A stretch of 64,000 nucleotides of DNA from Aequorivita capsosiphonis DSM 23843 (GTDB lineage Bacteria; Bacteroidota; Bacteroidia; Flavobacteriales; Flavobacteriaceae), in NCBI RefSeq assembly GCF_000429125.1, contig NZ_AUBG01000006.1, positions 248,001-312,000 on the forward strand, given 5' to 3'. Position numbers and translations under genes: made by a program. Of this stretch, positions 53,545-63,774 are shown in pieces (position 1 is the first letter of the stretch; each line of letters begins with the position of its first letter). Below the pieces are notes generated by a model. It saw nothing but the letters and a program-made list of their open reading frames with translations. It was not told where the DNA came from and ran no database searches.

Positions 53545-56097
53545 TTACCCGCATTTAGAAGATCCACAATCCTTGCAAGTCAAGCATCCTTCCTGATAAA
53601 TAAGGGAGGTGCTATTACAGTTTTCACATTTTTGCTTTCTTGCCTCAGTTCCGTCTGCAACATAGCGTTTTAAAGCTCGCGCAACGCCGTTTTTCCAAGT
53701 GTTGATACTTTCCGTGTCTAATTGCAAACTGTTGATTAATTCTACAGCTTTTTCAATTGGCATTCCGTGGCGAAGCGTGCTGGAAATCAATTTTGCATAG
53801 TTCCAGAACTCTGGGTTGAATTTATGTGAAAGTCCTTCAATAGTGGTTTTGTAACCGCGTTTGTTTTTATACTGAAAGTCATAACGAGAAGTTCCGTCGT
53901 CGTTTCTGTTTTTGATGATCAATCCATTATTCACCCAACGCGGAATCAAAATTCCATCTTCATCATCTGCAAAACCAGTAAAGATTTCATAAGGCTTTCC
54001 GTCAATTAGGCCGATAAAGGCAATCCATTTGTCTTTGCTGTTTTGGAAACGCACCACGTCTGCTTCCAAAGTTTCGGGGCGTTTGGTTGGGAATGCGGTA
54101 AGGGTGTCGTTTTCTTCTTCTTTCTTTTCATCATTGGAGATCAAAACTCCAGAACGAGAGCCATCACGATAGACAGTAACGCCTTTACAGCCGGCTTGCC
54201 AAGCTTCGAGATAAAGTTTGCCAACCAATTCTTCCGTAGCATCGTTTGGTAGGTTGATGGTTACTGAAATAGAGTGATCCACCCATTTTTGAACGGCACC
54301 TTGCATTCTTACTTTGCTCAACCAATCCACATCATTGGAAGTTGCTTTGTAATACGGTGATTTTTTCACAATTTTGTTCAGTTCTTCTTGACTGTAATTT
54401 CTATCTGTGTCAATTCCTTGAACTTCCATCCACTGCTTAAACCTGTGATGGAAAACTACATATTCTTCCCAGCTGTCGCCCACTTCATCCACAAAATCAA
54501 TACGCACGTTTTTGTCATTAGGATTTACTTTTCTTCTTCGTTTGTAAACGGGCATAAAAACAGGCTCAATACCAGAGGAGGTTTGCGTCATTAAACTTGT
54601 TGTTCCAGTTGGCGCAATGGTAAGCAAGGCAATATTTCTTCTGCCGTATTCCAGCATATCGTAATACAGCTTTTCATCTGCATCTTTTAGGCGAAGAATA
54701 AATGGATTGTCTTTTTCTCTTTCGCTGTCAAATATTTTAAAAGCACCTCTTTCCTTAGCTGCATAAACGGATGCGCGATAGGTTTCCAAGGCTAATGTTT
54801 TATGAATTTGAACTGAAAACTCAGTTCCTTTCTCACTACCGTATTTTATTCCCAAAGCGGCCAGCATATCACCTTCTGCAGTTATCCCTATTCCTGTTCT
54901 TCGGCCTTCTTCCGCTTTTCTCTGAATGTTTAACCAAAGATTTTTTTCCACAGCTTTTACTTCTTCTGTTTCTGGATCTGCATCAATTTTTGCGAGAATA
55001 GCGTCAATTTTTTCAAGTTCTAGGTCAATGATATCGTCCATTATTTTTTGGGCGATTACGATATGCTTTTTGAAAAGTTCAAAGTTGAATTCCGCTTTTT
55101 CCGTAAACGGGTTTTCAACATAAGAGAACAAATTGATTGCCAATAAACGACAAGAATCATAGGGGCAAAGTGGGATTTCGCCACAGGGATTTGTAGAAAC
55201 GGTTTTGTAGCCAAGATCTGCATAGCAATCTGGCACAGATTCATTTATAATGGTATCCCAGAAAAGAATACCTGGTTCGGCAGACTTCCAAGCGTTATGC
55301 ACAATTTTTTTCCAAAGTTTTTCGGCTTCAATTTCTTTAGAATATTTTGGATTATTGCTGAAAATAGGATATTTCTGTGTGTAGTTTCCTCCATCTTTTA
55401 CAGCCTGCATAAAGCTGTCGTCCATACGTACAGAAACGTTCGCGCCGGTAACTTTGCCCTGCTCCATTTTGGCATCTATAAAATCTTCAGAATCTGGATG
55501 GTTTATAGAAACCGATAGCATCAATGCACCTCGACGACCATCTTGAGCCACTTCACGTGTTGAGTTTGAATAACGCTCCATAAAAGGAACAATTCCCGTT
55601 GAGGTTAAAGCTGAATTTTTTACAGGTGAACCTTTTGGACGGATGTGTGAAAGGTCATGGCCCACTCCGCCGCGACGTTTCATAAGCTGCACCTGCTCCT
55701 GGTCTATCTTCATGATTCCTCCGTAAGAGTCGGAATCACCATTATTCCCAATTACGAAACAATTTGAAAGTGATCCAACTTGATATGGATTGCCAATTCC
55801 CGCCATGGGGCTTCCTTGAGGGACGATGTATTTAAAATCTTTAATGGCGTCAAAAACCTCTTTTTCAGTCATCGGATTTTGATATCGCTGTTCAATGCGT
55901 GCTATCTCACGAGCGATACGGCGGTGCATATCATCCGGTGTTTTTTCGTATATATTTCCGTCTGAATCTTTTAGGGCATATTTGTTTACCCAGACTCGAG
56001 CAGCAAGGTCATCGCCTTTAAAATATTCTACCGAAGCTTCAAACGCTTCGTCTTGAGTATAGGTTTGTTGAGTGGGAATGGCTGTTTTTATTGACAT
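53545..56097 (-). CDS. nrdJ: Adenosylcobalamin-dependent ribonucleotide reductase (class II)
   Basis: The 850-residue enzyme has the class II signatures PMAGIGNPYQVGSLSNCFVI, STNPCGEIPLCPYDSCRLLA and TIAPTGTTSLMTQTSSGIEP. GNPYQ/SNCF and NPCGE carry the active-site cysteines. The C-terminus holds a zinc-ribbon-like tail (CENCNSTSLIYQEGCLTCKD, CGSSKCG) with the redox Cys pair. It reduces ribonucleotides using B12 and thus supports DNA synthesis with or without oxygen. No cobalamin riboswitch is apparent upstream (56098-56350). Confidence 0.96.
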   Translation of the reverse strand: MSIKTAIPTQQTYTQDEAFEASVEYFKGDDLAARVWVNKYALKDSDGNIYEKTPDDMHRRIAREIARIEQRYQNPMTEKEVFDAIKDFKYIVPQGSPMAGIGNPYQVGSLSNCFVIGNNGDSDSYGGIMKIDQEQVQLMKRRGGVGHDLSHIRPKGSPVKNSALTSTGIVPFMERYSNSTREVAQDGRRGALMLSVSINHPDSEDFIDAKMEQGKVTGANVSVRMDDSFMQAVKDGGNYTQKYPIFSNNPKYSKEIEAEKLWKKIVHNAWKSAEPGILFWDTIINESVPDCYADLGYKTVSTNPCGEIPLCPYDSCRLLAINLFSYVENPFTEKAEFNFELFKKHIVIAQKIMDDIIDLELEKIDAILAKIDADPETEEVKAVEKNLWLNIQRKAEEGRRTGIGITAEGDMLAALGIKYGSEKGTEFSVQIHKTLALETYRASVYAAKERGAFKIFDSEREKDNPFILRLKDADEKLYYDMLEYGRRNIALLTIAPTGTTSLMTQTSSGIEPVFMPVYKRRRKVNPNDKNVRIDFVDEVGDSWEEYVVFHHRFKQWMEVQGIDTDRNYSQEELNKIVKKSPYYKATSNDVDWLSKVRMQGAVQKWVDHSISVTINLPNDATEELVGKLYLEAWQAGCKGVTVYRDGSRSGVLISNDEKKEEENDTLTAFPTKRPETLEADVVRFQNSKDKWIAFIGLIDGKPYEIFTGFADDEDGILIPRWVNNGLIIKNRNDDGTSRYDFQYKNKRGYKTTIEGLSHKFNPEFWNYAKLISSTLRHGMPIEKAVELINSLQLDTESINTWKNGVARALKRYVADGTEARKQKCENCNSTSLIYQEGCLTCKDCGSSKCG

Positions 56098-56352
56098 ATG
56101 TTTGAACTTAATTTAGGAAGCTATTATTTCTACTTTAAAGTATGTAAAGATAGCAAATTAGCAAGGTCAATATGAAATTAAAAATTTGAAGTTGTCAAGA
56201 AATTGATGTTAATAAACTTATAGTCAATAATATAAATATTTATCAACACTAAAAAGTTGACAAATATTTAAAATAAGTTTGGAGATGCGATATATTTATG
56301 TTTCAAAGACTATTTAATCTTAAATACTTTGAAATAATGATAAAAATCATTT

Positions 56353-56381
56353 TTTGGAAGTCACTGTGAGTGTTATCTTTG
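56353..56381 (+). promoter_or_regulatory. Promoter of the copper-locus small protein gene
   Basis: TTTG at 56353-56356 and TATCTTTG at 56374-56381 are 17 bases apart. The GTG start follows 4 bases later, implying a leaderless message. Confidence 0.65.
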
Positions 56382-56385
56382 TGTC

Positions 56386-56763
56386 GTGAAAAACATACTT
56401 CTCATAACAATCACTTTAATAATGCTTACGAAGCCTATGTGGCCCGTATTGGATTATGTGGCGAATTATGATTATATAGTAAACACGCTTTGTGAAAATA
56501 AAGACAAACCAGAGATGGAATGTAATGGAAAATGTCATTTGAACAAAGAACTAGCAAAAGAGGCTGGCGCAGATGATAAAAACCCGTTAAACAGCAAAAC
56601 CTCCAAAACTGAAATTCCTCAGATTATTATTTCAGAAAACATTAAAGAATTTAGTGTTGCTTGGGGAACCGAAATTACTTCTGAAGAAAACCTAGGCTAT
56701 ATGCCGAATTTAATTCCTTCTCTTTTCATTTCAAAAATTCTTCATCCGCCGCAGTTGGGGTAG
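56386..56763 (+). CDS. Small Cys-motif protein of a copper-type TonB locus
   Basis: The 125-residue protein starts with GTG and has a hydrophobic N-terminus (KNILLITITLIMLTKPMWPV), so it is probably exported or membrane-anchored. A motif Cys36...MECNGKCHL with Cys46 and Cys50 follows. Near the end is ILHPPQLG. Genes of this kind precede TonB receptors in some flavobacteria, as far as I recall. The Cys/His motif could bind copper. No known enzyme family is recognised. A paired CTACAAGG repeat separates it from the receptor gene. Confidence 0.78.
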   Translation: MKNILLITITLIMLTKPMWPVLDYVANYDYIVNTLCENKDKPEMECNGKCHLNKELAKEAGADDKNPLNSKTSKTEIPQIIISENIKEFSVAWGTEITSEENLGYMPNLIPSLFISKILHPPQLG

Positions 56764-56781
56764 TTTAAACTTTTATTTTTT

Positions 56782-56837
56782 CTACAAGGCGTTTATAGTG
56801 ATCCCGATAACAATCGAGAAAAGCATTCTCCTTGTAG
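56782..56837. repeat. Inverted CTACAAGG / CCTTGTAG pair with an inner degenerate palindrome
   Basis: CTACAAGG (56782-56789) pairs with CCTTGTAG (56830-56837). Between them is TCCCGATAACAATCGAGA, a damaged copy of the TCCCGATAnCTATCGGGA family. The layout could attenuate transcription into the TonB receptor gene. Confidence 0.65.
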
Positions 56838-56866
56838 GTATGTAAACTTCCTATAAAAACTCGAAA

Positions 56867-58906
56867 ATGAAAATATTTATAAGTGTGTTTCCTTTAAGGG
56901 GAACGCTTGTAGGTTGCCTTTGGTGTGCTTTGTTTTGCGGTATTTTTACGCCGAAACTATCTGCCCAAGAAACTCCTGCAGACAGCCTAAAACTAATTAA
57001 TCTTACTGAAGTGGTCGTGATTTCTACCGGTAAAAAGCTCGATCATCAAAAGCAGCGTAAGCCCTTATCTACGCTCGACGAATTCTTAGAATCTTCCCGC
57101 AGTATCAATATGGTAAAGCGCGGCGCATACGCTTGGGAACCAACCATGAACGATATGGCTTCAGAGCGATTGGCTGTAACCATAGATGGGATGCAGATTT
57201 TTGGTGCGTGTACCGATAAAATGGATCCGATAACTTCTTATGTTGATGTATCAAACCTTTCCGAAGCCCAAATTGGTTCCGGACAACAGGGCGCAGTATT
57301 TGGGAATACCATTGGCGGCGGTATTAATTTAAAACTGGACAAAAGTAATTTCAAGCCAACTGGCTGGAATGGCTCTTTGGAAAGCGCTTTTGAAACCAAT
57401 AATAAAATGCGTGTTTTTGGTGGTGAGTTGAATTATTCTGATGAAAAGTTCTATGCGAATACTGATGTTATTTATCGAAAAGCTGATGATTATAAAGCAG
57501 GGGGTAATAAGGAAGTCAATTTTTCACAATTTGAGAAATATAATTTCTCGGTTAATTCCGGCTATAAACTGACTGATGATAAATTTATTTCGGCTACCTT
57601 AATATATGATGAAGCGAAAGATGTTGGTTATCCGGCATTAACAATGGATGTTTCCTTGGCTCGCGCGGTGATTGGTTCGGTGAGCTTTAATCAGGATACT
57701 TTGTTTGGCAATTTAAGCAACTGGGAGTCGAAAGTGTATTACAACACTATTAAGCACGTGATGGATGACACCACGCGTCCAGATGTTGTTATACATATGG
57801 ATATGCCGGGATGGAGCGAAACTGCTGGGTTTTATACGCAGGCAAATTTCAACAAGGAAAATAATCACTTCTTTTTTAAGATGGATGGGTTTTACAATAA
57901 ATCTTACGCAGAAATGACGATGTATCCAACCAACAGCAACGAACCCTTAATGTTTATGTTGACGTGGCCAGATGTGCACACCAAAGATGTTGGGTTTTAT
58001 GCTGAAGATCATATCAATTTTGAAAAATCTTCCTTAAAACTTTCCACTCGCTTGGCCTATCATTCCAACGCCGTGGCGGATGACTTTGGATTGAACAGCT
58101 TAAAAATCTTTTATCCCGAAATGGAGAAAACAAATTCTCGGTTTTTAAAAAGCTTCTCAGCTCAATATCATACACCGCTCAGTGATTTTCATTTTAACGG
58201 AGGAGTTTCTTATGGTGAGCGTGCGCCTTCTGTTTCGGAAGGATATGGTTTTTACTTGTTCAACAGTTTTGATAATCACGATTATATAGGCGATCCAAAT
58301 TTGAATACGGAAAGCTCAGCAGATGCGAATGTTTCCCTAACCTATAAAAGACCGGTTTTTGAGATTACCGCAACTGCAAATTACTTTCACATTTTTGATT
58401 ATATCATAGGGAAAGTTGACAGTTCGTTGAGCACAATGACTATTGGGGCTGACGGGGTGAAGATTTATACGAATCTGGAATATGCGCAGCTTTTTAATGC
58501 TTCGTTTTCTGGGCGTTATAATATTTCGAATGCATTTAAGCTAACTGGGAATCTTTCGTATCACCGCGGAGTTGATAATGATGGCGAAAACTTGCCGTTA
58601 ATCAGTCCGGTTTCTTACAGAAGTGCGCTGGATTTTTATAAAAACCAATACTCCGTATCGCTTTCGGTGGAAGGCACAGGAGAGCAAACCAATTATAATC
58701 CTGCATACGGCGAAACAAAAACCGCTGCTTATGCCACACTTTCAGCGAGCTTCGGAAAACGTTTTTTTATCAATGAGAGTGATCTTTTTGTAAAAGCAGG
58801 AATTCAAAATATTTTTGATACATACTATTCTTCCTATACCGATTGGAACAACATTCCAAGAATGGGTAGGAATATTTATACAACAATTTCTTATTCTATC
58901 AATTAA
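56867..58906 (+). CDS. OprC/NosA-like TonB-dependent outer membrane receptor, probably copper
   Basis: The 679-residue protein has a signal peptide and a TonB-box-like TEVVVIS segment (48-54). The plug domain is at about 70-160 and the rest is a beta-barrel ending in NIFDTYYSSYTDW and YTTISYSIN. The plug contains IDGMQIFGACTDKMDPITSY, in which C115-x3-M119 matches the CxxxM copper ligand pair of OprC. Further Met/His clusters (VIHMDMPGW, MTMYPTNSNEPLMFML) are seen in barrel loops. It is likely to bring copper across the outer membrane with TonB energy. Confidence 0.88.
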   Translation: MKIFISVFPLRGTLVGCLWCALFCGIFTPKLSAQETPADSLKLINLTEVVVISTGKKLDHQKQRKPLSTLDEFLESSRSINMVKRGAYAWEPTMNDMASERLAVTIDGMQIFGACTDKMDPITSYVDVSNLSEAQIGSGQQGAVFGNTIGGGINLKLDKSNFKPTGWNGSLESAFETNNKMRVFGGELNYSDEKFYANTDVIYRKADDYKAGGNKEVNFSQFEKYNFSVNSGYKLTDDKFISATLIYDEAKDVGYPALTMDVSLARAVIGSVSFNQDTLFGNLSNWESKVYYNTIKHVMDDTTRPDVVIHMDMPGWSETAGFYTQANFNKENNHFFFKMDGFYNKSYAEMTMYPTNSNEPLMFMLTWPDVHTKDVGFYAEDHINFEKSSLKLSTRLAYHSNAVADDFGLNSLKIFYPEMEKTNSRFLKSFSAQYHTPLSDFHFNGGVSYGERAPSVSEGYGFYLFNSFDNHDYIGDPNLNTESSADANVSLTYKRPVFEITATANYFHIFDYIIGKVDSSLSTMTIGADGVKIYTNLEYAQLFNASFSGRYNISNAFKLTGNLSYHRGVDNDGENLPLISPVSYRSALDFYKNQYSVSLSVEGTGEQTNYNPAYGETKTAAYATLSASFGKRFFINESDLFVKAGIQNIFDTYYSSYTDWNNIPRMGRNIYTTISYSIN

Positions 58907-58927
58907 TTACAAAAAAATATAAATTTT

Positions 58928-59785
58928 ATGAAAACACTTAAATATATATTCGCGCTTCTTATTCTTTCGGTTTCATTCGTTAGTTGTTCTTCAGACGACG
59001 ATGAAAACATCCCAATTGAAACAAATCCGGTAGAAGGATTAAATAAAATCTACGAGTTTTCCGAAGCGGATCATTCCGTAGAAATCTATTCAGAAAAACA
59101 AATCCTTGAAGTAGGTTACAATGAAATTTCTATAAGAATTAAAGATTTAACAAATGACAAATACATCACAAATGCCAGAGTAACTTGGATGCCGATGATG
59201 CATATGGCAACTATGGAGCATTCTGCCCCCCATAGTATGTTGAGTAATTCAGAAGAAAGTTCAGTTTATAAAGCACATATCGTTTTCCAAATGGCAAGCA
59301 ACGATACGGAATACTGGGATTTAAGGCTTAATTATTCAGTGAACGGTCAGCCAATGGAGAAAGAATTTAGCATTAGCGTAGTGCAGCCCGCGGATGGTTT
59401 GAAGAAAACACAGGTATTTACAGGAAGTGACGATACCAAGTATGTTTTGGCTTTTATAAATCCAAAAGCCCCTAAAGTTGCGCTGAATGATATGCAAGCT
59501 GTGCTTTACAAAATGGAAAGTATGGTGAGTTTCCCAGTTGTTGAAAATTATAAAATAACTGTGGATCCAAGAATGCCAGGAATGGGTAATCACAGTTCCC
59601 CAAATAATCAAGATCTTACTTACAATGCTGCGACAAAGAAATATGAGGGAAAACTATCACTGACCATGACTGGTTTCTGGAAGATTAATATGAAGCTTTT
59701 GAATGAAAATGGAGTGGTTTTAAAAGGTGAAGATGTTACAGAAGACCATCTAACGAGTAGTTTGTACTTTGAGCTGGAATTCTAA
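58928..59785 (+). CDS. Met/His-rich lipoprotein with YtkA-like domains, probably copper-binding
   Basis: The 285-residue protein has a lipobox (SVSFVSCSSD, Cys20). A strand-rich domain (YNEISIRIKDLTNDKYITNA) holds WMPMMHMATMEHSAPHSM at 87-104, a run of Met and His like those in copper-binding YtkA/FixH-type proteins. A second similar domain carries DPRMPGMGNHSSPN. It starts 22 bases after the receptor stop and is surely co-transcribed. A role in receiving copper from the receptor or holding it at the membrane is inferred. Confidence 0.85.
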   Translation: MKTLKYIFALLILSVSFVSCSSDDDENIPIETNPVEGLNKIYEFSEADHSVEIYSEKQILEVGYNEISIRIKDLTNDKYITNARVTWMPMMHMATMEHSAPHSMLSNSEESSVYKAHIVFQMASNDTEYWDLRLNYSVNGQPMEKEFSISVVQPADGLKKTQVFTGSDDTKYVLAFINPKAPKVALNDMQAVLYKMESMVSFPVVENYKITVDPRMPGMGNHSSPNNQDLTYNAATKKYEGKLSLTMTGFWKINMKLLNENGVVLKGEDVTEDHLTSSLYFELEF

Positions 59786-59828
59786 AATAGGACTTAGGAT
59801 GAAATGATCTTCCTTAAGCTAGTAGGCG

Positions 59829-59864
59829 TAAGACATAAGAATAACTTTTTAGTCTTACGTCTTA
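59829..59864 (+). terminator. Heptamer-based hairpin after the copper lipoprotein gene
   Basis: TAAGACATAAGA pairs with TCTTACGTCTTA with one G-T pair. Heptamers GTCTTAC GTCTTAT GTCTCAC continue to the right, so the terminator is built from a 7-base repeat. Confidence 0.6.
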
Positions 59865-59900
59865 TGTCTCACTGTCCTATGTCTTTTGAAGTTATTTTTC

Positions 59901-59908
59901 TATATTTG
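59901..59908 (+). promoter_or_regulatory. Minus-7 element TATATTTG next to a GTG start
   Basis: TATATTTG ends 4 bases before GTG 59913, the same spacing as at 56374-56386. The minus-33 element is weak. Confidence 0.5.
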
Positions 59909-59912
59909 GCGC

Positions 59913-60542
59913 GTGAACTGGAGATGGTACATTACCGGAGTAATAGTTGCGCTTGCTTTTTTTGGCATGAGCCTAGGCCAATCAACAACAAACCCGAATC
60001 AGGAGATTGTTGTTCGGTTTAATGCTGCGTCTATAAATTCTGATGAGGTACAGCTAGCAATTGCCGATATACGAAGCCAGTTAAAGTCTATAGGCATAGA
60101 AAATGTTCACGTTTCAGAAATTGTAAACGGCAAATTAAAAGTAACTTACTTTAGTGATAAGGATGTTGCCGTAATAAAGGATTTATTTCTTCATCAAAAC
60201 AAACTTCAACTTGGGGATACGGCTTTCAATGAAAAAGAAGGGCCTTCAAAATTACCTTTTAATAAAAACTCCAACACCTATAAACTTGATGTAATTAAAA
60301 TTCAGCAGAATCCTAATTCTGATGTAGGTTTTCACGGTACCCTTGTTGATATTAAGTCTTTAAATGATCAATATTTAAAGCCGATAGTATCTCTGGCTAC
60401 TTCTGAAGTGACTTTTAGTTTAAAATATTTGATTAAAAGGGAAGCTTGTAAAATCTATCCAGATATAAGGCTTTTAATAAACAATTCTGCATATAAAATT
60501 CCTGAAGTTAGGGCGGGGCCTCTTGCCCAGGAATTTTTCTAA
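59913..60542 (+). CDS. Membrane-anchored protein of unknown function
   Basis: The 209-residue protein begins at GTG with MNWRWYITGVIVALAFFGMS, a basic start and one hydrophobic helix, probably an uncleaved anchor or signal. The body is alpha/beta: EIVVRFNAASINSDEVQLAI, then LKSIGIENVHVSEIVNGKLK, and ITYFSDKD-like (KVTYFSDKDVAVIKDLFL). A TTG nine codons earlier lies before the promoter element and is not preferred. The gene is upstream of secDF. I do not recognise the family. Confidence 0.78.
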   Translation: MNWRWYITGVIVALAFFGMSLGQSTTNPNQEIVVRFNAASINSDEVQLAIADIRSQLKSIGIENVHVSEIVNGKLKVTYFSDKDVAVIKDLFLHQNKLQLGDTAFNEKEGPSKLPFNKNSNTYKLDVIKIQQNPNSDVGFHGTLVDIKSLNDQYLKPIVSLATSEVTFSLKYLIKREACKIYPDIRLLINNSAYKIPEVRAGPLAQEFF

Positions 60543-60747: not shown

Positions 60748-63700
60748 ATGCAAAACAAAGGATTAATTACTGTATTTGCCATCCTCTTTGGACTGGTGAG
60801 TATTTATCAGCTTTCTTTTACGTTTGTTGCCAGCAAGGTAGAAGGTAATGCTAAGGAATTTGCGCAAAGCAAATTTTCTGAAGATGAGCCCCACGAACGG
60901 GAAGCCGCGGCAGCACGTTACTTAGATTCTGTAGCTACAAGCCCAGTATTCTTAGGGATAGATTACAAGACAGCTCAAGAAAAGGAATTGAATAAAGGTC
61001 TTGACCTTAAAGGTGGGATTAACGTTATTCTTCAAGTTTCTGTAAAAGATATCTTGAAAGGACTTGCAAACCATACTAAAGACCCTGCTTTTAACCAGGC
61101 TTTAGAGAAAGCGTCTGAACTTCAACAAAACAGTCAAGATACTTACCTCGAATTGTTTTTCAAGGCATTTGACGAGATTCCCGGCGAAAATAATCTTGCA
61201 TCTCCAGACATCTTCTTCAATAAAAATCTTGAAGATGATATAAACGTGGGAATGACCAATTCTCAAGTTAAAACAGTTATTGAAAGAAAAGTTGACGAGT
61301 CTATTACTTCTGCTTTTGAGGTTTTAAGAAAACGTATCGATAAATTTGGGGTTACTCAGCCAAACATTCAACGTTTAGGTAAATCAGCAAGAATACTTGT
61401 AGAGCTTCCTGGAGCAAAAGATGTTAGTAGAGTTAGGAAGTTACTTCAAAGTACTGCCCAACTTGAATTCTGGGATGTTTACAAATTTGAAGATGTTGCT
61501 GGTTTCCTTCAAGCTGCCGATACTAAAGCAGGTGAGATAGAAATGGCGAAAGCTGGTGCTGAAACTGAAACCACTAAGCCTGTGGTAGATTCTACGGAAA
61601 CAGAAGAAGATGACGTGAGCAAGCTATTGGGCGGACAAGATGTGAATGATTCTCTTGTTGATGACAATAAGGCGAACCCAATACTTTCAAAAATGGTTTC
61701 ATTAGGTACTCAAGGAGGTCCTGTGATCGCTGTTTTTAGATTAAAGGATACTGCAACAATCAATGCTTATTTGCGCAATCCTCAAATAAAATCATTGTTG
61801 CCAAACGAACTTCGTTTTGCTAAACTAGTTTGGGGATTGCCAGAAAGCAATCCACAATTGAACGGAGAAGAAACAACTGCTTTATATGCATTGAAAGGAA
61901 ACCGTGACAATGTTCCACCACTAGGAGGGAGTGTAGTTGTTGATGCAAGCCAAGAATATGACAACTTGAGCCGCGTAGTGGTTTCTATGCAAATGAATGG
62001 TCAAGGTGCTAAAATTTGGGAACAAATGACTGGTGATGCATACCAAAATCAAAGTCAAATTGCTATTGTTCTAGATGATATTGTTTATTCTGCTCCAGGT
62101 GTAACATCTGGTCCAATCGCGGGTGGACGAAGCCAAATTTCAGGAAATTTCACTGTACCACAAGGTCAGGATTTAGCGAATGTTTTGCGTGCAGGTAAAT
62201 TGCCTGCTTCTGCAGAGATTCTTCAAGGAGAGGTTGTAGGACCAACATTGGGTCATGAAGCTATTAATAGTGGGGTTATGTCCTTCTTGCTTGCACTTGG
62301 GATTGTACTTTTATGGATGATCTTCTACTACGGAAAAGCAGGTATTTTTGCCGATATCGCTTTGATGGTAAACATTTTGTTCATCTTCGGAATATTAGCC
62401 GGACTTGGTGCGGTACTAACGCTACCTGGTATTGCCGGTATTGTATTGACAATTGGTATGTCTGTGGATGCGAACGTGCTGATCTTTGAGCGTATTAAGG
62501 AGGAGCTCGCAAAAGGTAAGGCACAGAAAGATGCCATTAAAGATGGTTTCAACAATGCACTTTCCTCTATTCTTGATGCCAACATCACTACGGGTCTTAC
62601 CGGTTTGATACTTTTGGTTTTTGGAACTGGACCAATCCAAGGTTTTGCAACTACCTTATTAATTGGTATCGCAACTGCTTTATTTACTTCCATTTTCATT
62701 ACAAGACTGTTTATTGATAGTTATACCAAAAACGGTAAGGCATTGCCTTGTTCTACTTCATTGACGAAAAATCTTTTCACCGATGTGCATATCCAGTTCC
62801 TGAAAAAGCGTAAGATTGCTTATATCTTTTCTGCTATCATGATTTTGGTAAGTCTTACATCTTTATTTACCATTGGTTTAAACCAAGGTGTTGATTTTGT
62901 TGGTGGGCGTACTTATACCGTTCGTTTCGCGAAAGATGTAAACTCGGCTGAAATTCAAGACGATCTTATTAAGACCTTTGGAAGTGCCGAAGCTAAGACT
63001 TATGGTGGAGATAATCAGTTAAAGATAACAACCAAATATAAGGTTGAAGAAACTGGAACAGACGTGGATAACGAAATAGAGCATATGTTGTTCGAAACCG
63101 TGAAAAAGGAGATGCCGGCAGATATGACCTATGAAGAGTTTGTAGGTGATAGTGAGGGTAAGACTATTGGTAGAATGGAATCGTATAAAGTGAGTCCAAC
63201 TATTGCAGATAATATTAAGAAGGATTCCTTCTGGGCTGTACTTGGAGCATTGTTAGTGATGTTTCTTTACATCTTGTTGCGTTTTAGAAAATGGCAGTTT
63301 GGTCTTGGGGCTGTTGCGGCAATTTTTCACGATGTGTTGATTGTTCTTGGTATTTTCTCACTAACCTATAGATTTATGCCTTTCAGCATGGAGATTGACC
63401 AAGCGTTTATTGCGGCCATCCTTACGGTGGTGGGTTACTCTCTGAATGATACGGTTATTGTATTTGACCGTATTCGTGAGTACTTTGGAGAGCATCCAAA
63501 CTGGAAAATGGGTAAAATTGTTGACGTTGCCTTGAATAGTACATTAGGAAGAACCTTGAATACTTCATTTACAACTCTTGTGGTATTGTTGTGTATGTTC
63601 TTCTTTGGAGCAGAGTCTATACGCGGATTGCTATTTGCTATTATCGTAGGTATCTTTGTGGGTACCTATTCATCATTGTTTATTGCAACGCCACTTATGT

Positions 63701-63774
63701 ATGACAGTGTGAAACGTAAAAAGGTTGAAGATCTAGTTAAAAAGAAAGAAGAGGAACCGGTTTTAGAGGCCTAA
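60748..63774 (+). CDS. secDF: Fused SecDF protein translocase subunit
   Basis: The 1008-residue protein joins SecD and SecF. The SecD half has LDLKGGINVILQV near 90, the P1 periplasmic domain with an acidic insert (STETEEDDVSKLLGGQDVND, about 280-300), and GMSVDANVLIFERIKEELAK in its helices. The SecF half begins near 690 and has GVDFVGGRTYTVRF and SLNDTVIVFDRIREYFGEHP. It uses the proton gradient to pull exported proteins out of SecYEG. The fusion is typical for Bacteroidota. It has its own promoter and terminator. Confidence 0.97.
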   Translation: MQNKGLITVFAILFGLVSIYQLSFTFVASKVEGNAKEFAQSKFSEDEPHEREAAAARYLDSVATSPVFLGIDYKTAQEKELNKGLDLKGGINVILQVSVKDILKGLANHTKDPAFNQALEKASELQQNSQDTYLELFFKAFDEIPGENNLASPDIFFNKNLEDDINVGMTNSQVKTVIERKVDESITSAFEVLRKRIDKFGVTQPNIQRLGKSARILVELPGAKDVSRVRKLLQSTAQLEFWDVYKFEDVAGFLQAADTKAGEIEMAKAGAETETTKPVVDSTETEEDDVSKLLGGQDVNDSLVDDNKANPILSKMVSLGTQGGPVIAVFRLKDTATINAYLRNPQIKSLLPNELRFAKLVWGLPESNPQLNGEETTALYALKGNRDNVPPLGGSVVVDASQEYDNLSRVVVSMQMNGQGAKIWEQMTGDAYQNQSQIAIVLDDIVYSAPGVTSGPIAGGRSQISGNFTVPQGQDLANVLRAGKLPASAEILQGEVVGPTLGHEAINSGVMSFLLALGIVLLWMIFYYGKAGIFADIALMVNILFIFGILAGLGAVLTLPGIAGIVLTIGMSVDANVLIFERIKEELAKGKAQKDAIKDGFNNALSSILDANITTGLTGLILLVFGTGPIQGFATTLLIGIATALFTSIFITRLFIDSYTKNGKALPCSTSLTKNLFTDVHIQFLKKRKIAYIFSAIMILVSLTSLFTIGLNQGVDFVGGRTYTVRFAKDVNSAEIQDDLIKTFGSAEAKTYGGDNQLKITTKYKVEETGTDVDNEIEHMLFETVKKEMPADMTYEEFVGDSEGKTIGRMESYKVSPTIADNIKKDSFWAVLGALLVMFLYILLRFRKWQFGLGAVAAIFHDVLIVLGIFSLTYRFMPFSMEIDQAFIAAILTVVGYSLNDTVIVFDRIREYFGEHPNWKMGKIVDVALNSTLGRTLNTSFTTLVVLLCMFFFGAESIRGLLFAIIVGIFVGTYSSLFIATPLMYDSVKRKKVEDLVKKKEEEPVLEA

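Follow-up and report, generated by a model that had tools for sequence, protein, structure and literature searches.

A probable copper-responsive upstream open reading frame ahead of an OprC-like receptor gene in Aequorivita capsosiphonis and other Bacteroidota

We examined a three-gene copper locus in a 64,000-nucleotide (nt) stretch of Aequorivita capsosiphonis DSM 23843 (the window, to which all coordinates refer), which lies within one contig of the 4.04-Mb genome. Three plus-strand open reading frames (ORFs) in 56386–59785 encode a small Cys protein, an OprC-like TonB-dependent receptor and a YtkA-like lipoprotein. The small gene is probably an upstream ORF of the CutF/CruR type that sets the levels of receptor and lipoprotein, rather than the gene of a copper carrier. 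In the CutF system of Rhodobacter capsulatus, a CxxxC protein that carries a Pro motif at its C-terminus opens, while still being made and exported, the stem-loop lying over the next gene (PMC9973294); with CruR of Bordetella pertussis, ribosomes stalled at RAPP maintain expression of a copper receptor, which copper switches off (PMC9426467). The CruR arrest has been demonstrated in vitro (PMC12992588). A regulatory upstream ORF fits the small gene because it stands before several kinds of copper gene, carries a CutF-like Cys motif and a terminal Pro pair at near-constant spacing, keeps little else and yields a low-confidence structural model. An earlier note on this DNA had described a three-gene copper locus and outlined a route for copper from outer membrane to periplasmic carrier. 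The ORFs and their coordinates were confirmed and the copper identity is supported; motif, fold and gene company point to receptor and lipoprotein as putative steps of that route, and a step in it is not the best reading of the small protein. The locus comprises the following features, all on the plus strand.

56338–56349: FNR/CRP-type palindrome TGATAAAAATCA (TGA-N6-TCA), centred at about −42.5 from the predicted transcription start
56374–56381: Bacteroidota −7 promoter element TATCTTTG (TAnnTTTG), with four bases between it and the GTG
56386–56763: gene of the small Cys protein (GTG start, 125 residues), the proposed copper-sensing upstream ORF
56521–56535: codons of C46-N-G-K-C50, the proposed copper site, from conservation in relatives
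56746–56751: codons of P121-P122 (LHPP-QLG-stop), the proposed pause site, from conservation in relatives
56762–56767: 5′ arm AGTTTA, overlapping the stop codon of the small gene and predicted to pair with 56843–56848
56782–56837: inverted repeat CTACAAGG (56782–56789) / CCTTGTAG (56830–56837), read from the sequence
56843–56848: 3′ arm TAAACT, 18 bases 5′ of the receptor ATG, with predicted pairing
56867–58906: gene of the OprC-like TonB-dependent receptor (679 residues; C115xxxM119, H297xM299; matches to OprC 6fok and TIGR01778)
58928–59785: gene of the YtkA-like lipoprotein (285 residues; two beta domains with Met/His kept; PF13115)

Conservation in the small protein is confined to two places. 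In 33 aligned members the residues invariant after the start are C36, N38, C46, G48, K49, C50, P121 and P122, and the stretch between the Cys motif and the end shows no conservation, leaving only the Cys stretch and the end. The Cys46-x3-Cys50-His51 of the A. capsosiphonis protein is present as the earlier note had given it, and the C.G.C pattern is kept in most further family matches. Of the 118 nonredundant small proteins, 113 have a Pro-Pro pair within their last 15 residues; among downstream proteins the figure is 8 of 342. The gap between the second Cys and the Pro pair is 61–73 residues (median 67, standard deviation 2.5, n=116), and it is 70 residues in A. capsosiphonis. The residue ahead of the pair is most often His (63 of 117), with Arg next (20) and then Pro (13), and Phe stands two residues before it in 67. 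L067 and L068, which failed the Cys pattern, were left out; L214 also fails it, and L204 is without the Pro pair. A structural model predicts a hydrophobic helix at residues 2–26 followed by mostly low-confidence chain (predicted local distance difference test score, pLDDT, 57). Searches at E≤1 returned no Pfam or NCBIfam match for the protein of the locus, and no family in either database matched more than one of 33 relatives (best single E values 0.0005 and 0.001, taken as chance). Membership of DUF2946 was rejected: the family is missing from the matches of 33 members at E≤1, and no DUF2946 place was found in the genome.

The family is widespread and keeps company with copper genes. It was matched in 42 of 59 genomes searched (A. 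capsosiphonis, with its single copy, included), among them 26 of 28 in the genus, and in a phylum sample in 90 of 247 Bacteroidota genomes and 51 of 122 genera. At 114 of 118 nonredundant loci no more than 350 nt separate the small gene from the start of the next called ORF; with family names that rest on scanned cluster representatives, this ORF is a TonB receptor in 44, MbnP in 25, a YtkA lipoprotein in 23, an outer-barrel or DICGC-type cluster in 12, a YHS-type cluster in 3 and another gene in 11. Within the next three genes, 105 of the 118 loci have a copper-linked cluster (any TonB receptor, MbnP, YtkA, MbnH, SCO1 or PCuAC). Partners across the family include an OprC-type receptor, a YtkA lipoprotein, MbnP-MbnH, SCO1/PCuAC and a receptor with PepSY. 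The trio runs small gene, receptor, lipoprotein in Aequorivita and mostly small gene, lipoprotein, receptor in the other genera examined that have it; the small gene is 5′ in both. That it is the first gene of its operon everywhere was dropped as an idea, since 51 of 115 nonredundant loci have a close same-strand upstream ORF and 64 do not, where upstream ORFs were taken as at least 100 residues from stop to stop ending within 150 nt, some of them surely spurious. In three genomes (L160, L161 and L162, with L128, L134 and L141) a second small gene lies directly 3′ of the OprC-like receptor and before MbnP-MbnH, giving two leaders in series.

Sequence matches identify the receptor as a relative of OprC. 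All six matches of phmmer against the PDB at E≤0.001 are OprC sequences (best 6fok, E 2e-14), and TIGR01778, the model of TonB-dependent copper receptors, matches at E 3e-35 but with 122 bits against a cut-off of 472, which leaves the receptor below the equivalog threshold. The C115-x3-M119 pair of the plug, noticed earlier, is indeed present; together with H297-x-M299, which the earlier note lacked, it completes the OprC site (C143, M147, H323 and M325 in OprC; PMC8610252). Among 91 receptors of more than 600 residues encoded within three genes downstream of a small gene, BLAST aligned 70 to the receptor of the locus; C, M, H and M are retained in 69 of the 70, at identities as low as 21%; at nonredundant loci the count is 48 of 49 aligned receptors (of 66). 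A regular expression found the OprC pattern in one of the 21 unaligned receptors and not in the other 20; of these, 12 have a PepSY_TM-type partner, as judged from a single scanned representative each of clusters 5 and 15.

Viewed from the receptor, a small ORF is again a frequent companion. At E≤1e-60, OprC-like receptors were found at 27 places in 25 of 247 genomes. The small gene lies upstream at 12 (one of them before MbnP-MbnH-lipoprotein-receptor), and at 9 of 10 whose receptor is at least 34% identical. At eight others a different Cys/His-rich small ORF ending in RPP or KPP stands 66–206 nt before the lipoprotein match and is not reported by the family profile; one place has an RGPP-ending ORF 2.3 kb upstream, and at five no such small ORF was seen, with a contig end within 1.9 kb in two. 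The remaining place, one of two with the same score in G246, was left out. Absence of the small gene beside most OprC-like receptors had been named earlier as evidence that would tell against the proposal; this is not so if the look-alikes count, and by the small gene alone the figure is the 12 of 27. The second Cys/His-rich class (FCYCEVEEGEKTCTCHH-like; L217–L220 and L223–L226) precedes OprC-like receptor operons in other Bacteroidota, just 5′ of the lipoprotein, and gave no convincing Pfam match in the three members scanned. By reading of the sequence, L227, L237 and L238 have a YtkA lipoprotein and an OprC-like receptor just 3′ of NosZ-/NosL-like genes, and copper import therefore seems to be part of nos operons there.

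The lipoprotein passes the gathering cut-off of PF13115 (YtkA; 36.1 bits against 25.9). Its reported Met/His runs were recovered in both domains, MMHMATMEH in the first and RMPGMGNH in the second. Across 16 aligned relatives M216, M219, H222 and M247 are invariant, and M91, M93, H98, M122 and M199 nearly so. AlphaFold predicts a beta protein (pLDDT 88) whose first domain aligns structurally with Helicobacter pylori CrdA over 105 residues (Z 12.9, root-mean-square deviation 2.5, 18% identity; next match Z 9.2), a predicted likeness of fold only. Foldseek's own list for the lipoprotein held unrelated beta proteins at low TM-scores.

Transcription is predicted to start at the small gene itself. 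The GTG does directly follow a promoter, as claimed before, and this is of the Bacteroidota type: TATCTTTG lies four bases ahead of it. In a genus alignment TAnnTTTG, exactly four bases, GTGAAAA and a TGA-N6-TCA ahead of them are invariant at 14 of 14 loci. In Flavobacterium johnsoniae the −7 element ends with its G at −5 (PMC6847099), so that +1 would be the G of the GTG at 56386 and the mRNA is predicted to be leaderless; leaderless mRNAs make up 5.5% of 890 mapped in F. psychrophilum (PMC9723704). Family-wide, TAnnTTTG occurs within 12 nt of a start codon at 44 of 117 loci, against 2.4 in shuffles. TGA-N6-TCA, which at this locus is the palindrome at 56338–56349, a point absent from the earlier note, has its centre between −40.5 and −42.5 at 15 of the 42 loci with TAHHTTTG within 12 nt of the start and lies elsewhere in the 95 positions scanned in 4; a reversed-motif control in these loci gave none at −40.5 to −42.5 and one elsewhere. 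We take this position to match that of class II FNR/CRP sites. Sigma-70 promoters (17 found, 16.9 expected) and terminators (3 against 4.0) were at chance level, and the Bacteroidota consensus fits instead.

The same promoter design recurs in the genome. TGA-N6-TCA followed after 23 nt (a spacing one base shorter) by TAnnTTTG was found 11 times, against 3 for the reversed control. The nine scanned among the 11 ORFs behind these sites are a radical-SAM gene, which we take to be HemN, a COX1 gene (260 nt further), a cytochrome c gene leading the nos genes, two universal stress genes and genes for an S30AE-type hibernation protein, YceI, a pyridine-nucleotide oxidoreductase and an MlaE permease. 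The nosZ of this genome scores 940 bits, and genes read from their sequence as probable NosL, NosD, NosF and NosY follow it. The FNR-like promoter set (L251, with sites in L240–L250) includes nos, universal stress and hibernation factor genes.

The RNA between the small gene and the receptor, which lie 103 nt apart on the same strand, bears a conserved hairpin in the genus. It occurs at 19 of 25 loci (18 distinct) with its loop 25–33 nt past the stop codon and a stem whose sequence varies; several of these hairpins are followed by U-rich stretches. Because RNAalifold on a MAFFT alignment missed the hairpin, and gave a stop/start helix without compensatory change, we used a half-swap test. Halves from the same locus paired at −12.1 kcal/mol and swapped halves at −8.0 kcal/mol in the 18 distinct loci (0 of 20,000 permutations), and at −12.3 and −8.0 kcal/mol in the 12 most distinct (0 of 20,000). 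This test left out one duplicate and the six of the 25 genus loci without the anchor sequence (the window, L048=L005, L053, L057, L062 and L063).

Around the genus hairpin a second pairing may form, between the stop region GATAATTT and AAATTATC 5′ of the ATG. Its arms are nearly invariant in the genus and so give no covariation signal. Across the phylum, with gaps of at least 70 nt (a limit chosen after first results had been seen), stop/start pairing beats shuffles at p≤0.05 in 35 of 94 small-gene pairs and 4 of 53 other gene pairs of the same loci (Fisher p 7e-5). A first version of the test without this limit (own −10.4, permuted −7.3) was set aside as confounded by composition and short hairpins, because control gene pairs behaved alike (−12.8 and −8.9). 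Compared with shuffles, the controls again kept up with the small-gene pairs (mean z −1.21 and −1.40, misplaced pairs −0.04), and only the 70-nt limit told the two apart. The inverted repeat noted earlier between small gene and receptor is likewise there, as CTACAAGG at 56782–56789 and CCTTGTAG at 56830–56837.

Gene order, motifs, spacing, promoter and the covariation of the genus hairpin are seen in the sequences themselves, and from them we infer export, stalling, copper binding, the sign of control and copper hand-over as follows. The mRNA would start at the GTG under an FNR-like activator at low oxygen, and the nascent small protein would be exported via Sec through its N-terminal hydrophobic helix. 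With the ribosome at the terminal HPP, the CxxxC would lie 70 residues away, a length that should suffice to span tunnel and translocon, so that the Cys pair would just emerge on the periplasmic side. A pause at the Pro pair would place the ribosome over the stop codon and the 5′ arm: 9 bases lie between the end of the Pro-Pro codons and the stop codon, and with the known size of the ribosomal footprint the leading edge would extend across that arm. The 3′ arm just before the receptor ATG would then stay unpaired and the start open. Copper on the CxxxC would alter the pause. As the downstream gene is an importer, copper is expected to be an off-signal: it would end the pause, the structure would close, and receptor and lipoprotein would fall. 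The receptor itself would take copper at CxxxM-HxM and hand it to the Met/His lipoprotein, to supply copper enzymes of the envelope such as NosZ and a heme-copper oxidase.

Comparison with the published description of CutF supports this scheme. Both systems have a small protein with CxxxC and C-terminal Pro-Pro, and copper genes downstream (PMC9973294). CutF is exported and a stem-loop precedes its next gene; here the N-terminal hydrophobic helix may direct export, and a hairpin that may play the part of the stem-loop covaries at 18 distinct loci of the genus, the window having a different palindrome. The filters used for CutF-like proteins in that paper also describe the small protein here: fewer than 150 residues (125), PP at 121–122 of 125, C46-x3-C50 and a same-strand downstream gene within 1000 nt (103 nt). 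The next gene, however, is an OprC-like importer and not a multicopper oxidase, the start codon is at the predicted transcription start, and the promoter is FNR-like. Bacteroidota account for 40% of the CutF-like list when normalised by proteomes and 19% without, and TonB-like genes are among the commonest neighbours (PMC9973294); as CutF-like Bacteroidota proteins are already catalogued there, the present family would be a variant of a known leader type. CruR shares a place before a TonB copper receptor, Cys and a C-terminal Pro motif at fixed spacing, and poor structure, but has CXXC and RAPP 45 residues apart and belongs to DUF2946, whereas the small protein has CxxxC and LHPP 70 apart (PMC9426467, PMC12992588). 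According to PMC12992588, Bacteroidota lack RAPP/RGPP upstream ORFs in front of Cu-related genes, those in front of TonB-related genes being missing from Gram-negative bacteria generally; the FHPP class is a possible counterpart.

Several observations weigh against such a regulator. The motif is mostly (I/V)-F-H-P-P and not the RAPP/RGPP for which arrest has been shown, and the Pro motif of CutF by itself did not stall strongly (PMC9973294). The A. capsosiphonis locus is without the genus hairpin and carries a different palindrome instead, and shuffled sequences fold as well as its intergenic region (z 0.18). With shorter gaps, control gene pairs pair as well as small-gene pairs, and whole-intergenic folding does not separate the two (mean z −2.4 and −2.7). 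No copper-linked cluster is among the next three genes at 13 of 118 loci, and outside the window the small gene need not lead the transcript (51 of 115). Finally, the Pro-Pro count is partly biased because the search profile itself includes the Pro pair; yet of the 17 matches whose profile alignment ended at residue 108 or before, 16 carry a PP no more than 18 residues from the C-terminus, at the same spacing.

Four alternatives were weighed. A CruR-like mode, in which the HPP stall keeps Rho away and copper, by ending it, lets transcription stop before the receptor with no translational coupling, is unlikely, if the most credible of the four. Downstream of CruR come a TonB receptor gene and one further gene (PMC9426467, PMC12914433). 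Some loci here have small gene, receptor and PepSY_TM, and U-rich stretches lie behind several genus hairpins. The third gene after CruR is reportedly a PepSY_TM gene. The covarying hairpin and the stop/start pairing fit translational control at least equally. We give still less credence to a CutF-like sign of control, with copper strengthening the pause and switching the downstream genes on. CxxxC is the CutF motif and CutF acts in this way (PMC9973294), but NosA is copper-repressed and OprC goes down in copper stress (PMC8610252), and a copper-induced importer makes little sense, though this sign might suit loci that include a multicopper oxidase. If the small protein acted beside the receptor as a periplasmic chaperone or reductant for copper, this would account for the invariant Cys, the N-terminal hydrophobic helix and the presence of copper-linked clusters at 105 of 118 loci, with every TonB receptor included; such a role is nevertheless improbable, given that conservation is limited to the Cys stretch and the end, that the model past the helix is of low confidence and that a chaperone offers no evident reason for a terminal PP at near-constant spacing. 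Least probable is control by the hairpin or the FNR-like promoter by itself, with the small ORF as just the leading gene of an operon: site and hairpin are both kept in the genus, but the terminal PP, its near-constant spacing and the occurrence of the small gene before unrelated copper genes would be left unexplained.

Extended to the phylum, the preferred reading of an upstream ORF becomes more tentative, with somewhat less than an even chance. In much of the Bacteroidota, copper import and copper enzyme genes might be set by nascent exported chains with an (I/V)-F-H-P-P arrest end and a Cys pair about 67 residues off that samples the periplasm, the ribosome opening the next start by covering the stop. 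At the OprC locus a copper switch would then sit atop an FNR-like oxygen switch, by way of an mRNA starting at its own GTG, and the second RPP/KPP Cys/His-rich class would substitute before OprC-like receptors of other lineages, which would mean that the device arose more than once. If the upstream-ORF reading is right, a single family of small proteins, for which Pfam and NCBIfam have no model, would predict copper-responsive genes in more than a third of sampled Bacteroidota genomes, Bacteroidota ribosomes would have a new candidate class of arrest motif, and copper import would be linked to low-oxygen respiration and N2O reduction. Copper sensing and import in Bacteroidota seem little studied, to judge by the few papers that searches brought up. 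Literature searches, judged mostly from their listings, showed no description in Bacteroidota of the gene arrangement, the FHPP class, its spacing, the FNR-like leaderless promoter or the second Cys/His class. OprC and NosA share the CxxxM-HxM site, and NosA is tied to the copper of N2O reductase (PMC8610252); the present receptor is related to them but falls under the TIGR01778 cut-off, and it differs in its partner lipoprotein and leader ORF. G2EC70 of Bizionia argentinensis, an OprC-like receptor from a flavobacterium that has CxxxM-HxM, is already published (PMC11213822), and the parts of that account covered here do not mention a leader ORF or a YtkA lipoprotein.

In the surroundings of the trio, the gene on its 5′ side (53545–56097) is on the opposite strand, and Rfam gave no match within 55500–60500. 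The 9-mer CCTTGTAGG of the locus's palindrome, considered as a dispersed repeat, occurs 3 times in the window against 0.25 expected, but genome-wide there is little excess, with 37 copies compared with 31 of its reversed form; paired-arm patterns of it had no genome match at the distances allowed, which fell short of the locus's own 40 nt. A second CCTTGTAGG inverted pair lies between genes at 1585–1627 of the window. About 1 kb past the copper genes, the ORF at 60748–63774 reads as SecDF-like.

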